Shown in pieces: positions 771-10,804 of a DNA stretch of 33,098 nucleotides. This DNA comes from Actinomycetes bacterium. GTDB taxonomy: Bacteria > Actinomycetota > Acidimicrobiia > Acidimicrobiales > RAAP-2. The translations under genes and the position numbers were made by a program. Location: the NCBI GenBank assembly GCA_021828005.1, contig JAKATJ010000012.1, positions 1-33,098 on the forward strand, given 5' to 3'. A model generated the notes under the pieces. The model was given only the letters and a program-made list of their open reading frames with translations, was not told the origin of the DNA and did not search any database. Within the stretch, counting starts at the first letter, position 1; every line of letters starts with the position of its first letter.

Positions 771-1643
771 TCAGGGCAGGGCGGCAGCGAGCTCGTCTCG
801 CAGGCGCGAAGCCGCCGCCCGCAGCCCGTTCCGCCCCTCCGACAAGAGCGTCCGTGACGCCGACGGGAGGACCGTGCCCGGTGCGCAGCGCGCGAACCGG
901 CGTGCCACGTCGGCCACGGTGGCCCCCTGCGCGCCCAGCCCCGGCGCCAGCACCACCCCGGCGAGGTCGCTGAGCCCTTCGGGCGGGGTCCTTCCCGTCG
1001 CGCTGACGACCACCCCGACCGAGCCGAGACCGCCCGCCCGGCCGACCTCCTCGGAGTTCCAGCGGCTGATCGAACGCACCATCGACTCCTCGACCGTGGC
1101 GCCCTCGCGGAGCACCGCCTCCTGGAGCTCACGACCCTCGGGGTTCGAGCTCGTCACGACGACGACGAGCCCCCGCCCCGTCGCACGTGCGGCGACGACC
1201 ATCGGGAAGAGCGCGCCGATGCCGACGTAGGGCGTGGCGGTGACCGCGTCCGCGGCGAGGGGACCGCGGAACCACGCGTCCGCGTACGCCTCGGTGGTGC
1301 TGCCGATGTCCCCACGCTTGGCGTCCGCGACGACGAGCATCCCAGCGCCGCGTGCTGCGGCGACGAGCTGCTCGAACGCCGAGATGCCTCGTGCCCCGTG
1401 CCGCTCGAAGAACGCGACCTGTGGCTTCAGCGCTGCGACGACGCCATCGAGCTCGCGGACGCACGCCTCCCCGAACGAGAGGAGCCCATCGGCGTCGTCG
1501 GGGAGCCCGAAGACGTCGAGGAGCGCCGGGGAGGGGTCGATGCCGACGCAGAGCGGGCCGAGCGCGCGGATCGCGGCCCGGACGCGCTCGCCGAAGGTGG
1601 CGGTGCCGGGCACGGCGGGTGCGTGGTCAGCCGAGGGCGGCAC
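771..1643 (-). CDS. pyrF: Orotidine 5'-phosphate decarboxylase (type 2 family)
   Basis: Last step of UMP synthesis, decarboxylating OMP in the cytoplasm. The 290-residue protein matches the longer mycobacterial/myxobacterial PyrF type. It has the substrate-site VGIDPSP near residue 35 and the catalytic DAKRGDIGSTT near residue 110. VVVTSSNPEG and VVLAPGLGAQG follow toward the C-terminus. The start is GTG at 1643, with GAGGAG seven nt upstream, so it overlaps the end of pyrD by 17 nt; no better start is seen. Translational coupling to pyrD is likely. Confidence 0.95.
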   Translation of the reverse strand: MPPSADHAPAVPGTATFGERVRAAIRALGPLCVGIDPSPALLDVFGLPDDADGLLSFGEACVRELDGVVAALKPQVAFFERHGARGISAFEQLVAAARGAGMLVVADAKRGDIGSTTEAYADAWFRGPLAADAVTATPYVGIGALFPMVVAARATGRGLVVVVTSSNPEGRELQEAVLREGATVEESMVRSISRWNSEEVGRAGGLGSVGVVVSATGRTPPEGLSDLAGVVLAPGLGAQGATVADVARRFARCAPGTVLPSASRTLLSEGRNGLRAAASRLRDELAAALP

Positions 1644-2551
1644 CGCTCAGCTCCTCTGCCGTCGTCTTGCGCCGCGCGCACCAGCGCGCCAGCTCCTCTT
1701 GCACTCGCCACGGCGCGCGCGGGTCCGCGAACGTCGCGGTGCCGACCTGGACGGCGTTCGCCCCCGCCATGAGCAGCTCCGCCGCGTCCGCTCCCGACGT
1801 GACCCCGCCCACGCCCACGATCGGCGCATCGGGGAACGCACGCCGGCAGTCGTGGACGGCACGGACGGCGATGGGGTGCAGCGCCGGCCCCGACAACCCG
1901 CCGGCGAACGGCGCGCGGCCGTCGTCGACGTCCACCCACATCGCCGGCATCGTGTTCACGAGCGTGAGACCGGACGCGCCCGCCTCGAGCGCCGCCGCTG
2001 CGATCACGCAGATGTCCGGCACCGCCGGGCTGAGCTTCGCCCACACCGGGACCCCGCTGCGCCCGAGCACGCCGGCCGCCGCGGCGACCGCCTCGGCGGT
2101 CCCCTCGGGGGAATGGGCGAACAGGTGACCAGAGAGGTTCGGGCAGCTCACGTTCACCTCGACGGCGACGACCCCGGGCGTGACCTCCCCGCCACCGGCC
2201 AGGAGCGCCGCCGCTGCGGCGGCGAACTCCGCGGCCGTGCCGCCCCAGACGCTCGCGACCACCGCCGCGCCGTGGGCGAGCAGGCCGGGGAGGTCCCGCG
2301 CGCGCCAGGCCGCGACACCGGGGCCCTGGAGCCCGACACGGTTCAGCATCGAGCCGCCCGCGGCGCCGTGGACACGCATGCCGTCGTTCCCCGGCCAGGG
2401 GTGCGCCGCCAGTGACTTCACCACGACCGCCCCGAGGTCGGCGAGCGGGCCGTAGGCGGCGAGCTCGGCCCCGTGGCCCGACGTCCCCGACGCGGTCATC
2501 ACGGCGGAGCGGAGCCGCAGCCCGCCGACCCTCGTCGCGAGCGCGCGCCGC

Positions 2552-2571
<20 letters not shown>
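1627..2571 (-). CDS. pyrD: Dihydroorotate dehydrogenase, class 1B-like
   Basis: Oxidises dihydroorotate to orotate with FMN. The 314 residues include [10 protein letters not shown] near residue 25, the loop NVSCPN with the catalytic cysteine near residue 140, [10 protein letters not shown] and [13 protein letters not shown]. The Cys rather than Ser base, the absence of an N-terminal membrane extension and the overall pattern fit class 1B, not the class 2 enzyme of mycobacteria. Class 1B enzymes normally need the Fe-S/FAD subunit PyrK, usually encoded next door, but carB directly precedes this gene and no pyrK is in the window. The ATG overlaps the end of carB by 20 nt and has AGGAG 7 nt upstream. 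Confidence 0.95.
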
Positions 2572-5857
<3,286 letters not shown>

Positions 5858-5889: not shown

Positions 5890-6957
5890 CTAGCCGAGCA
5901 TCTCGGCGAACGCGCGGAACAGGTACCTGGCGTCGTGCGGTCCGGGGCCCGCCTCTGGGTGGTACTGGACGGAGAACGCGCTCGCCCCTGCGAGGCGCAC
6001 GCCCTCGACGACCCCGTCGTTCAGGTTCACGTGCGTCACCTCGGCGCCGGGGACGTCGGTCACCGCGTAGTTGTGGTTCTGGCTCGTGATCTCGACGGCC
6101 CCGTCGGCCAGCCGCTGCACGGGATGGTTGGTCCCGTGGTGGCCGAACAACAGCTTGTACGTCGAGCCGCCGAGCGCTGCGCAGAGGAGCTGGTGGCCGA
6201 GGCAGATCCCGAAGATGGGCACCTTGCCGACCAGGTCGGCGATCGCCGACGTCGGCCCGGGGAGCGCGCCCGGGTCGCCGGGGCCGTTCGACAGGAGCAC
6301 GCCGTCGGGCTCCATGGCCAAGACGTCGGAAGCCGGCGTCGACGCGGGGACCACCGTCACCGTCCCCATCCGTTCGAGCTGCCGGAGCATCGTCTGCTTC
6401 ACGCCGAAGTCGTACGCGACGACCCGGCGCGGTCCGCTCCCGCGTACGTACGGGGCAGGCGTGGTCACGTCCGACACGAGGTCGCGGCCGTCGGTCGGAA
6501 GCGCCTGCGCGGCCGCCTCGCGCAGCGCCGTTTCGCCGGCCGTCCCGAAGGCGCAGGGCATGGCGCCCTTGTCGCGCAGGTGGCGCGTCAAGCGGCGCGT
6601 GTCGACGCCGCTCACCGCGGGGACGCCCCGGCGCCGAAGCCAGCAGTCGAGGCCTTCCCTCGCGCGCCAGCTCGAGGGCTCCGGCGTGAGGTCGCGGACG
6701 ACGACGCCGAGGCAGTGGACCCGGCCCGACTCGTCGTCCTCGCCGTTGGTGCCGTAGTTCCCGATGTGCGGGTACGTGAAGGCAACCACCTGGCCGGCGT
6801 ACGACGGGTCGGTGAGCACCTCTTGATAACCGCAGAGCGCAGTGTTGAAGACGAGCTCGCCCGTCGCAACCGGTGCCGGCGCGCCGGCGGCCTCGCCCTC
6901 GAACACCTCGCCGTCGGCGAGCACGAGCAGCGCAGCAGCACGCGGGCCACCGCTCAC
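5890..6957 (-). CDS. carA: Carbamoyl-phosphate synthase small subunit
   Basis: Glutamine amidotransferase subunit that supplies ammonia to CarB. It has 355 residues if it starts at GTG 6957, giving the usual beginning ([15 protein letters not shown]). The track start at 7032 lies inside pyrC and is unlikely. The N-terminal CPSase small domain contains [20 protein letters not shown]. The class I amidotransferase domain has the nucleophile Cys in [10 protein letters not shown] and the His/Glu pair in [12 protein letters not shown]. The GTG and the pyrC stop share GTGA, a 4-nt overlap that implies coupled translation. Confidence 0.97.
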
Positions 6958-8240
6958 CGCTGCGCCTCCGCGTCGACGACGACCGCCTCGCCTGCCGCGA
7001 TCGTGTGGCGGTTCCTGCCCGTGAACGTCCACCCCGAAAAGGGGGTGTTCCGGCTCCGGCTCGAAAGCCGCGCCGGGTCGACCGTCCAGGTGGCCGCGGG
7101 GTCGATCACGCAGAGGTTGGCGGCGGCGCCCTCCACCACCGGGCCGCCCTGGCGCGGGGCCAGGCCGGCGATCTGCGCGGGCCGCCAGCTCATGCAGGCG
7201 AGCGCGAGCTCGAGGCCGAGGAACGAGAGCGCGACCGACAGCGCCGTCTCCAGCCCGAGCATGCCGGGAGGCGCCTCGTCGAAGGGAAGGTCCTTCGCCT
7301 CGGGGGCGTGCGGGGCGTGGTCGGTCGCGATCGCGTCGACCACCCCGTCACAGAGCCCGTCACGAAGGCGCTCCACGTCCTCTCGGCTGCGTAGCGGCGG
7401 GCTCACCTTGAACATGGGGTCGTACCCGGCGCACGCGGCGTCCGTCAGCACGAGGTGGTGCGGGGTCACCTCGGAGGTGACGCACAGCCCCTCGGCCTTG
7501 GCCCGCCGGACCAGCTCGACAGAGCCCGCGGTCGACAGGTGGAGGAGGTGGAGCCGGGCACCCGTGAGACGCGCGAGCGCGATGTCGCGGCCGACCATCG
7601 TCTCCTCGGCCGCCGCCGGAGCCCCCGGCAGACCGAGCCGGCTCGACCACGCCCCCTCGTGCATGGCGCCACCCGCCGCCAGGGCGGCGTCCTCGCAGTG
7701 CTGGGCGAGGGTCACGCCGAGCCCGCGCGCGTAGTCGAGCGCCCGGCGCATCAGCGCGCCGTCCTGGACGCCCGCGCCGTCGTCGGTGAAGATCCGGACA
7801 CCGAGCGCGGCGAGCTCGCCCATGGGCGCCAGCCGCTCCCCCTCCCTGCCGACCGTGATCGCTCCTGCGACCGCCACCTCGACGGGCGCGCGTGCCCCGA
7901 GCGCGAGCACCTCGGTCGCGACCGCGGCGCAGTCGACCGGCGGCTCGGTGTTCGGCATGGCGACCACCGCCGTGTACCCGCCGAGCGCCGCCGACCGGGC
8001 GCCCGTCTCCACGGTCTCGGCCTCCTCCCCCCCGGGTTCGCGCAGGTGGGCGTGGAGGTCCACGAGGCCCGGCGCCACCACGCACCCGCCTGCGTCAAGC
8101 ACCAGCGCGCGGCTCGGCGCGTCACGCGCGGCGTCGGGCCCCACGGCACGGACGACCCCGTCGGCGACCACCACGTCGGCCCGGCGGCGGCCGACCGCGT
8201 CCAGGACCTCGCCGCCTCGCAGCACGAGCGGCCGGCTCAC
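6954..8240 (-). CDS. pyrC: Dihydroorotase, class I
   Basis: Zinc amidohydrolase that cyclises carbamoyl aspartate to dihydroorotate. It has 428 residues from GTG 8240 ([16 protein letters not shown]), a start that overlaps the pyrB stop as GTGA. The long N-terminal extension in the track is out-of-frame pyrB and should be dropped. Metal ligands appear as HAHLREPG near residue 60 and in [12 protein letters not shown] near residue 305. The NTEPPVD segment and the C-terminal [12 protein letters not shown] are also typical. The protein seems intact and catalytically complete, unlike inactive pyrC-like partners known for some aspartate transcarbamoylases. Confidence 0.97.
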
Positions 8241-9151
8241 ATCGCACCGCCGAGCAACAAGAAGAGGACGGCCATCCGGACCGCGACCCCGTTGGTCACC
8301 TGGCGCGTGACCACCGCCTGGGGAAGGTCGGCGACGTCGCTCGCGATCTCGACGCCGCGGATCATGGGACCTGGGTGGGTGACGACCGCGTCGGGGTCCA
8401 GGAGCCGAGCCCGCCGAGCGGTCAAGCCGAAGCGGGCCGTGTACTCGCGCAGCGTCGGGACGAACATGCCGGCGCCGCGTTCGGCCTGCAGCCTGAGCAG
8501 GGACACGACGTCGGCCTTCGGCAGCGCCGCGTCGAGGTCGTCGGTCACCTCGACCGGCCATCCCTCGAGGGAAGCTGGCAGCAGGCTCCCCGGCGCGACG
8601 AGGGTCACCGACGCGCCGAGCGCGTCGTAGGCGAGGACCTGAGACCGGGCCACCCGGCTGTGGAGGACGTCTCCGACCACGAGGACCCTCAGCCCCTCGA
8701 TCTCGCCGCGTACCTGGCGCACCGTGAAGCAGTCCAGCAACGCCTGGGTCGGGTGCTCGTGCCACCCGTCGCCCCCGTTCACCACCTTGCAGCGCCGCAC
8801 CCACCTGCTCACCTGCACGGGCACGCCCGCCGACGGGTGCCGGACGACGAGCGCGTCCATGCCCATCGCCTCGATGGTCTCGACGGTGTCGCGGACCGAC
8901 TCGCCCTTCTTCACCGAGGAGGCGCCGACCGAGAACGAGAGCACGTCGGCGGACAGGCGCTTGGCCGCCGTCTCGAAGGAGAGGCGGGTGCGGGTCGAGT
9001 CCTCGAAGAACAGCGTCGCGATCGCCTTGCCGCGCAGCGTCGGGACCTTCCGTATCGGGCGCGTCCCGACTTCGGCGAAGGCCTCCGCGACGCGCAGGAC
9101 CTCCTCGATCCCGTCGCGCCCGAGGTCCGACACCGAGAGCAGGTGTGTCAC
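8237..9151 (-). CDS. pyrB: Aspartate carbamoyltransferase catalytic subunit
   Basis: Condenses carbamoyl phosphate and aspartate. The 304 residues carry the carbamoyl-phosphate site [12 protein letters not shown] near residue 50, the 80s-loop-like [12 protein letters not shown], and [10 protein letters not shown] near residue 130. The later [10 protein letters not shown] helps bind aspartate in this family. No regulatory pyrI is present, so control is probably through the upstream PyrR leader. The GTG start overlaps the pyrR stop as GTGA, and the end overlaps pyrC in the same way. Confidence 0.98.
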
Positions 9152-9702
9152 TGCAGGGTCCCGATCGTCACGCCGTCCTCGGAGACGTCCACCATCTCGT
9201 CCCGCCGGGTCGGGAGGTTCTTCCCGACGTAGTCCGGCCTGATCGGAAGCTCTCGATGGCCGCGGTCGACCATCACCGCCAGCTGCACCGTGCGCGCCCG
9301 CCCGAAGTCGCTCAGCGCGTGGAGCGCGGCCCGCACGGTGCGCCCGGTGAACAGCACGTCGTCGACCAGCACCACGGCCTTGCCTGTGAGCTCGCAGGGG
9401 ATCTCGGTCACCGCCTCGGGCAGCACGGGCCGGAGCCCGATGTCGTCGCGGTAGAAGGCGACGTCGAGGGTCCCCATCAAGACGTCTGCGCCCTCGGCTT
9501 GCCGCAGCGCCTCGGCGATGCCACGAGCCAGCGGCACGCCGCCGGTCTGCAAGCCGACGAGCACGACGCCGTCGAGGCCGCCGTTGCGCTCGGCGATCTC
9601 GTGCGCCATCCGGACGAGCGCGCGGTGGAGGTCCGCTGCGGAGAGGACCTGGGTCCGTGGCACGAAGATGCGGCCGCGGTTACTGCGCTTGCGCTCGGCC
9701 AA
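9148..9702 (-). CDS. pyrR: PyrR bifunctional regulator / uracil phosphoribosyltransferase
   Basis: RNA-binding regulator of the pyr operon that, in characterised members, binds its leader hairpin when UMP/UTP is high and can also have uracil phosphoribosyltransferase activity. The PRPP loop is [18 protein letters not shown], followed by [20 protein letters not shown], diagnostic of PyrR. I place the start at TTG 9702, which has GGAGG 4 nt upstream and gives 184 residues. The track GTG at 9729 sits inside the PyrR-binding hairpin and is unlikely. It is the first gene of the pyr block, 76 bp after nusB, and its stop overlaps pyrB (GTGA). Confidence 0.95.
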
Positions 9703-9714
9703 CGGTCCTCCTGT

Positions 9715-9745
9715 CCGTACGGGCCTCACAGGACCCGCTTCACGG
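9715..9745 (-). promoter_or_regulatory. PyrR-binding RNA hairpin in the pyrR leader
   Basis: On the minus strand an upper stem CGGG(T)CC pairs with GGCCCG around the loop TGTGA. This keeps the conserved PyrR core (GTCC, N, G, N, GAGG, C) and the bulged U. A lower stem CCGT/ACGG is separated by the purine-rich bulge GAAG, as in known binding loops. Its 3' side ends about 3 nt before the ACAGGAGG ribosome site, so bound PyrR should block translation, as described for Mycobacterium smegmatis. No attenuator with a T-run follows. A competing stem TCCTGT/ACAGGA could also form. Confidence 0.85.
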
Positions 9746-9755
9746 TCGAAGGGGA

Positions 9756-9761
9756 ACCTTA
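9756..9761 (-). promoter_or_regulatory. -10-like TAAGGT for the pyr transcript
   Basis: TAAGGT lies about 53 nt before the pyrR TTG. Initiation some 7 nt downstream would give a short leader that contains exactly the PyrR hairpin and the Shine-Dalgarno. No -35 is recognisable. Confidence 0.5.
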
Positions 9762-9778: not shown

Positions 9779-10177
9779 TCAGCGCACCTGCGCCGCGACC
9801 GTGCGCAAGATGCCGTTCACGAAGGCGCCGGACTCCTCGGTCGAGTAGGTCTTGGCGAGCTCGACCGCTTCATCGAGCACGACGGCCGTCGGGGGCCCGT
9901 CCTGGTCGAGCAGCTCGGCGACGGCCATCCGCAGGACCAGACGATCGACGACGGCCATCCGTTCGAGCGGCCATCCGATCGAGGCGGCCGCGATGAGCGC
10001 GTCGGCGCGGACCCGGTGGCGCTCCGCGGCGGCGACGAGGTCGGCCGCGAAGCGGTCGGGCGGGACCGCCAGCGCGGCCACGACCGCGGTCGGCGCCTCC
10101 CTCTTGAGCTCCGCCTCGTAGAGCAGCCCGAGCGCGCGTTCGCGCGACTGGTGCCTCGTGGGCTCGTCGGTCGGCAC
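9779..10177 (-). CDS. nusB: Transcription antitermination factor NusB
   Basis: All-helical RNA-binding factor that joins NusE (S10) on boxA to support rRNA antitermination. The 132-residue length fits. The N-terminal [18 protein letters not shown], central [17 protein letters not shown], and C-terminal [26 protein letters not shown] are the family hallmarks. The GTG start at 10177 is the first sensible one. It follows efp by 66 bp, as in many bacteria, and precedes the pyr leader. Two direct repeats GGGCTCGTCG lie upstream and a third lies in its first codons. Confidence 0.95.
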
Positions 10178-10215
10178 GTTCGCTCGGGGCTCGTCGCTCT
10201 GGATCGGGCTCGTCG
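10160..10215. repeat. Three direct copies of GGGCTCGTCG between efp and nusB
   Basis: The 10-mer occurs at 10160, 10187 and 10206 on the plus strand, two copies in the efp-nusB gap and one within the nusB 5' end. In such GC-rich DNA this may be chance; a regulatory role is only a possibility. Confidence 0.35.
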
Positions 10216-10243
10216 GTGGGCGTAGAGCGCCCGCCGGGCCCGC

Positions 10244-10804
10244 TCAGGCCCGTGCCAGGTACTCGCCGGACCGGGTGTCGACCCGGATCGACTCCCCCGG
10301 GTTGACGAACAGCGGCACCTGCACCACGAGGCCCGTCTCGACGGTCGCTGGCTTGCGGGCGCCCGAGACCCGGTCCCCCTGGATGCCCGGCTCCGTGTCG
10401 GTCACGGTCAGCTCCACTGCTGCGGGAAGGTCGATCCCGACGATGTCGCTCCCGTGCATCTGGAGGTAGACGGCGTTCCCCTCCCTCAGGTAGCTGGCGG
10501 CGTCGCCGAGCGTCGCCCGGGTGACCTGGATCTGCTCATAGCTCGTCGAGTCCATGAAGACGTACTCGTCGCCGTCGCGGTAGAGGAACTGCATCTCGTG
10601 CTTGTCGATGATGGCCTGCTCGAGCTTCTCGTCGGCACGATAGGTCTTCTCGAGCACCGCGCCCGTTCGCACGTTCTTCAGCTTGGTGCGGACGAACGCT
10701 CCGCCCTTGCCGGGCTTCACGTGCTGGAACTCGACGACGGTGAAGAGACCTTCGGGGAGATCGAGCGTCATGCCGTTCTTCAGGTCGTTCGTGGAGACGG
10801 GCAT
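10244..10804 (-). CDS. efp: Translation elongation factor P
   Basis: Enters the ribosomal E site to relieve stalling at polyproline. The 186 residues show the KOW-like N-terminal domain with the tip loop HVKPGKGGAF, whose lysine near residue 33 is the usual modification position, then two OB-fold domains (EYVFMDSTSYEQIQ, VPLFVNPGESIRVDTRSGEYL). The ATG at 10804 has AGAGGA 4 nt upstream. About 80 bp separates it from the peptidase gene. No epmA/epmB-like or rhamnosyltransferase partner is in the window, so the modification state is unknown. Confidence 0.97.
   Translation of the reverse strand: MPVSTNDLKNGMTLDLPEGLFTVVEFQHVKPGKGGAFVRTKLKNVRTGAVLEKTYRADEKLEQAIIDKHEMQFLYRDGDEYVFMDSTSYEQIQVTRATLGDAASYLREGNAVYLQMHGSDIVGIDLPAAVELTVTDTEPGIQGDRVSGARKPATVETGLVVQVPLFVNPGESIRVDTRSGEYLARA

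Follow-up and report, generated by a model that had tools for sequence, protein, structure and literature searches.

The window analysed here is the whole of a 33,098-nt contig from the incomplete genome (2.3 Mb, 185 contigs) of an uncultured actinobacterium whose named relatives are Acidimicrobiales. On the minus strand, the site of interest is flanked by nusB (9779-10177) and pyrR, the latter the first of a run of pyr and car genes (Table 1). That the gene following the leader is pyrR, as a sequence-only reading of this DNA had claimed, was borne out: the encoded protein passes the NCBIfam equivalog NF003549 with 211.8 bits (cut-off 138), resembles the solved PyrR structures 1ufr (E 9e-53) and 1non (E 4e-50), and keeps a 19-residue PyrR segment in the comparison with PDB PyrR. 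The GTGA-type coupling proposed for pyrR/pyrB, pyrB/pyrC and pyrC/carA likewise corresponds to real overlaps in the sequence. Directly upstream of pyrR stand efp and nusB (9779-10804, minus strand), whose products EF-P and NusB are each relevant to transcription-translation coupling; the starts of relatives' PyrR proteins hold PP motifs, and this is possibly a coincidence.

Table 1. Features of the pyr locus and its leader (positions in the window).
Feature	Position	Strand	Details
-10 element TAAGGT	9756..9761	-	no recognisable -35; predicted transcription start ~9747-9749
PyrR-binding hairpin (predicted operator)	9715..9745	-	lower stem CCGT/ACGG, purine bulge GAAG, upper stem CGGG..CCCG, loop UCCUGUGAGG
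Upper stem and PyrR recognition loop CGGGUCCUGUGAGGCCCG	9720..9737	-	loop letters near-invariant, stem pairs covary
Shine-Dalgarno (SD) AGGAGG	9707..9712	-	2 nt past hairpin; ACAGGAGG at 9714-9707
pyrR	9148..9702	-	TTG start 9702-9700, 184 aa; bifunctional pyr operon regulator / uracil phosphoribosyltransferase
pyrB	8237..9151	-	NF002032, 377.5 bits; start overlaps pyrR stop (GTGA)
pyrC	6954..8240	-	Amidohydro_1 / DHOase; start overlaps pyrB stop (ATGTGA)
carA	5890..6957	-	TIGR01368, 419 bits; start overlaps pyrC stop (GTGA)
carB	2552..5857	-	CPSase_L domains; 32 nt past carA, same strand
pyrD (dihydroorotate dehydrogenase)	1627..2571	-	PF01180, 167.6 bits
pyrF (OMP decarboxylase)	771..1643	-	PF00215, 97.6 bits

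Read 5' to 3' on the minus strand, the hairpin consists of CCGT (9745-9742), GAAG, CGGG, U, CC, UGUGA, GG, CCCG, u and ACGG (9718-9715). Its consensus CCGTNAAGCNNGTCCNGNGAGGCNNGNACGG occurs once in the 33 kb with zero mismatches, and never in 100 shuffled windows, even when three mismatches were allowed. Of 111 homologous loci, 109 carry the strict motif upstream of pyrR, and all 111 do once it is relaxed slightly. When 55 distinct hairpins were aligned over their 10 pairs, 98.9% of cells were paired (41% or less in slid versions), and five of the ten pairs show two-sided changes, amounting to 23 cells against a shuffled mean of 3.5 and 0-2 in slid registers. Compensatory changes, whose absence from related genomes the earlier reading had named as grounds for abandoning the element, are thus found. 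The lower stem CCGT/ACGG with its purine bulge was also described correctly, the GAAG bulge being conserved and the lower stem 99.1% paired.

Searched with a covariance model built from this alignment, 350 of the 397 genomes sampled from the order gave a hit with E of 0.001 or better, covering 178 of 204 genera. The source genome holds one convincing copy; another match (G000:C47, 21 bits) falls within an unrelated long ORF and was rejected as chance. The Rfam PyrR element, suggested earlier as a check on this leader, misses it: RF00515 (gathering score 54) matches neither the window, even below threshold, nor any other part of the source genome, and scanning the window against Rfam returned chance-level families only, whether the limit was the gathering score or an E value of 10. 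Among relatives, 6 of 31 genomes match RF00515 at or near their pyrR leaders, all below the cut-off (best 34.1 bits).

The core hairpin of the sequence-only reading therefore stands, with one small correction at the bulged T drawn in it. RNAalifold folded the hairpin top as a hexaloop CUGUGA with U-G as its closing pair. In this register a U-A pair is kept at both loci where G24 is changed to A, and the bulged-U pair cannot form in L111, which together make the hexaloop a slightly better fit. When folding was followed along the growing transcript, the hairpin dominated until about 54 nt had been made. With 12 nt of coding sequence added, the minimum free energy fold of the window leader (-20.1) is not the PyrR hairpin (-13.1 in the hexaloop register), so the naked RNA may prefer another fold. 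A purine-rich SD adjoins the hairpin in nearly all relatives' leaders, and the distance from hairpin end to start codon is 12 nt in the window and 8-13 nt across its family. An in-frame GTG within the loop (9729) was rejected as the true start, since the spacing between hairpin and start differs between loci, so that this GTG is not kept in frame, and the conserved SD adjoins the later start.

The TAAGGT promoter, proposed to set the hairpin at the 5' end of the mRNA, agrees with a -10 element held in register across most leaders. Of 147 non-redundant leaders, 90, the window among them, have TAnnnT exactly at -16 from the lower stem, and about 136 have it between -17 and -13; at other positions it occurs in 0-2 leaders. 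A G two bases before TAnnnT is conserved (extended -10) across the 147 leaders, and a conserved -35 was not seen in them. As the transcript is predicted to start 2-4 nt ahead of the hairpin, the site would become available to PyrR on leaving the polymerase. Read-through transcription from efp-nusB may also occur.

Based on these conserved features, the best explanation is that the hairpin serves as an RNA operator of PyrR, through which the overlapping pyrR-pyrB-pyrC-carA genes would be repressed in translation (probability about 0.85). Transcription would start about 2-4 nt 5' of the hairpin, and when UMP/UTP is high PyrR would bind the loop on the nascent mRNA. The hairpin ends 2 nt from AGGAGG and 12 nt from the start codon, a distance that puts it inside the ribosome footprint, so loading of the 30S subunit would be physically prevented. 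With pyrR untranslated, the overlapping pyrB, pyrC and carA would lose translation too, by coupling and probably polarity; at low pyrimidines PyrR would come off and the ribosome load. PyrR binding, UMP/UTP as the signal and the translational outcome are what we infer, the first two from the protein family. In the simplest mechanism PyrR and the 30S subunit would compete, and the stop/start overlaps would carry the effect to the later genes.

The sequence-only reading had reported no T-run attenuator. No T-run terminator was found in the window leader, and the predicted terminator is present in 0 of 30 loci of the window's family, but setting translation against attenuation oversimplifies the picture across the lineage. 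Of 162 distinct pyrR 5' ends, 67 have within their first 72 nt a perfect stem of 6 or more pairs with a T-rich stretch behind it. Resampling synonymous codons at the usage of each gene gives 13 +/- 3.5, and elsewhere in these genes stretches of 72 nt hold 0-5 such stems. These hairpins fall at pyrR codons 9-17 in many families of Acidimicrobiales other than that of the window (L066, L173 and L220 are examples), with the typical sequence ACGCCCCC-n4-GGGGGCGT-TTTTGTT encoding TPPxGGVFV. In an alignment of 74 segments picked by protein position, not by pairing, 38 cells carry two-sided changes (11.9 when shuffled) and 89.4% of cells are paired (62% or less when slid); stem variants include CGCCTCC/GGAGGCG, ACCCCACC/GGTGGGGT and CGCGCCC/GGGCGCG. 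Codon choice at this N-terminal type is unusual as well, GTT preceding Phe in 57 of 92 cases, against 84 of 2093 elsewhere; for TTT the figures are 43 of 102 and 16 of 291. The terminator-like hairpin would account for both the peptide TPPYGGVF and these codons, which are rare in GC-rich genomes. The predicted terminator arm begins about 24 nt past the start codon, and the stem would be disrupted only once a ribosome had loaded and read a few codons; in many relatives a blocked ribosome would thus leave the terminator in the first pyrR codons free to stop transcription too.

In other classes of the phylum a like arrangement occurs with the leader unfused: the hairpin and SD are followed by a leader ORF of about 14-27 codons running across a terminator-like stem, and the leader stop overlaps the pyrR start (L140, L142, L234, L236, L241, L247, L249, L250 and L252). 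Two of the leader peptides end in GGVF. Family f3 has a second PyrR hairpin before carA with its own SD and a mini-ORF of 22-31 codons. At each of the nine loci examined (L159, L160, L161, L162, L164, L166, L167, L169 and L170) the TGA of this ORF shares 4 nt with the carA start, and most of them have a terminator-like stem and T-run. The gene 3' of the loop is thus pyrR in the window and carA at these second copies. In two genomes of family f7, pyrR and carA are on separate contigs, each with a PyrR hairpin (L150/L151 in G247, L152/L153 in G151); the hairpin therefore goes with pyr genes rather than with one locus, and control in trans is implied.

Taken together, these comparisons suggest that PyrR control across Acidimicrobiales is probably a translation-coupled attenuator with the leader peptide now fused to the start of PyrR, that the cassette was copied to carA in one family, and that the window's family, on losing the terminator, reverted to purely translational repression but kept a remnant of the fused leader. 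With the leader fused, TPPYGGVF would exist because its codons form the terminator hairpin and U-run, exposed when PyrR keeps the ribosome off. As history, we infer that a leader ORF with terminator became fused to pyrR in Acidimicrobiales and was then stripped of its terminator in the window's family. On the tree the fused-terminator trait is clustered, with at least five changes, and the ancestral state is not fixed; the window's family may either have lost the predicted terminator or never had it. The window itself looks like a terminator-less, purely translational form of the translation-coupled PyrR attenuator. No earlier description of a fused-leader attenuator was found in the open-access literature.

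The relatives' predicted terminators bear on how the window leader would work. It might act mainly by transcription attenuation, PyrR blocking translation and an uncovered terminator or Rho then stopping transcription, with the effect falling on the mRNA. The covarying hairpin at pyrR codons 9-17 outside the window's family and its counterpart in the leader ORFs of other classes favour this, and Rho-dependent polarity could serve here without a T-run; yet neither stem nor T-run occurs in the window or the 30 loci of its family, and full stems number 0 of 24 among f1-like N-termini. We regard attenuation as the main mode here as rather unlikely. An attenuator of the Bacillus type, with an RNA antiterminator competing with the PyrR hairpin, would fit a loop identical in kind, the terminator of relatives and their weak RF00515 matches, but the window lacks a terminator, and pairing between hairpin and terminator arm in relatives is no stronger within a locus (-6.48 kcal/mol) than between loci (-6.40 kcal/mol). 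With no own-locus preference and no conserved, covarying antiterminator candidate seen in relatives, such a device is very improbable.

The two-state switch of the sequence-only reading, with a TCCTGT/ACAGGA stem that would hide the SD, is hardly to be expected either: the six-base match is present in the window (-7.1 kcal/mol) but far weaker than the hairpin alone (-13.1), and it is complete in only 5 of 162 leaders, TCCCGT breaking the stem in most. The palindrome does sit just past the promoter, where a DNA operator or a chance repeat could also lie. We give that next to no credence given the asymmetric invariant loop, the G-U pairs, the compensatory stem changes and the copies before carA, and PyrR binds RNA in studied relatives.

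Translational repression by PyrR at such a site has a precedent. Fields and Switzer are said to have found in 2007 that pyrR of Mycobacterium smegmatis is repressed by PyrR at the translation level. By analogy, the window appears to share with it a PyrR loop at the pyrR ribosome site, an attenuator that is not needed and pyrR at the head of pyrR-pyrB-pyrC-carA; the loop lies within ribosome-binding reach of the pyrR start (12 nt), and no terminator accompanies it in any of the 30 family loci. In the window the SD sits next to the hairpin but is not part of it, and hardly any transcript is predicted to precede the hairpin. For the pyrR leader of Thermus ZO5, Van de Casteele et al. reportedly proposed in 1997 that a PyrR-dependent terminator is prevented by a translating ribosome and not by an antiterminator. 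The same principle would apply to the relatives with a leader ORF and terminator, except that Acidimicrobiales have the leader segment joined in frame to PyrR, and the window has no terminator. In Escherichia coli pyrBI, UTP is sensed through RNA polymerase pausing, whereas here PyrR would block the ribosome. Leader translation (pyrL) across the pyrBI terminator prevents termination (PMC5021804), as we propose for the relatives.

The Bacillus subtilis pyr attenuators (RF00515; PMC7430163) share with the window the loop consensus, the purine bulge and the PyrR protein family. Their loop and upper stem follow ARUCCNGNGAGGYU (also ARUCCAGAGAGGYU) with a purine internal bulge (PMC7430163); the window's GGUCCUGUGAGGCC fits the former, differing only by a paired G-C for A-U and at N positions, and CGGGUCCUGUGAGGCCCG agrees with the latter at the fixed letters of the loop, again with G-C replacing the closing A-U. 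In contrast to them, the window has neither an intrinsic terminator nor a competing antiterminator, and RF00515 does not match it.

Judged from sequence, the window element would be another PyrR operator of the translational type, a kind already known, and the novel part would be the order-wide fused-leader attenuator. PyrR operator control would thereby extend to an order of mostly uncultured bacteria that the Rfam model misses. The loci offer a natural series for attenuator evolution, from the operator alone to the operator with leader ORF and terminator, the leader fused to the regulator and the terminator lost. The terminator in the first pyrR codons is a directly testable case of RNA control shaping a protein sequence.

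Two minor variants were also seen among the leaders. At L063, L067 and L101, ORFs of 6-11 codons past the SD have a stop overlapping the pyrR start, so pyrR translation may be coupled to them. In L141, L143, L145 and L148, from other classes, the lower stem is CCTTT/AAGG, which places the SD inside the PyrR hairpin, where it would be hidden directly.
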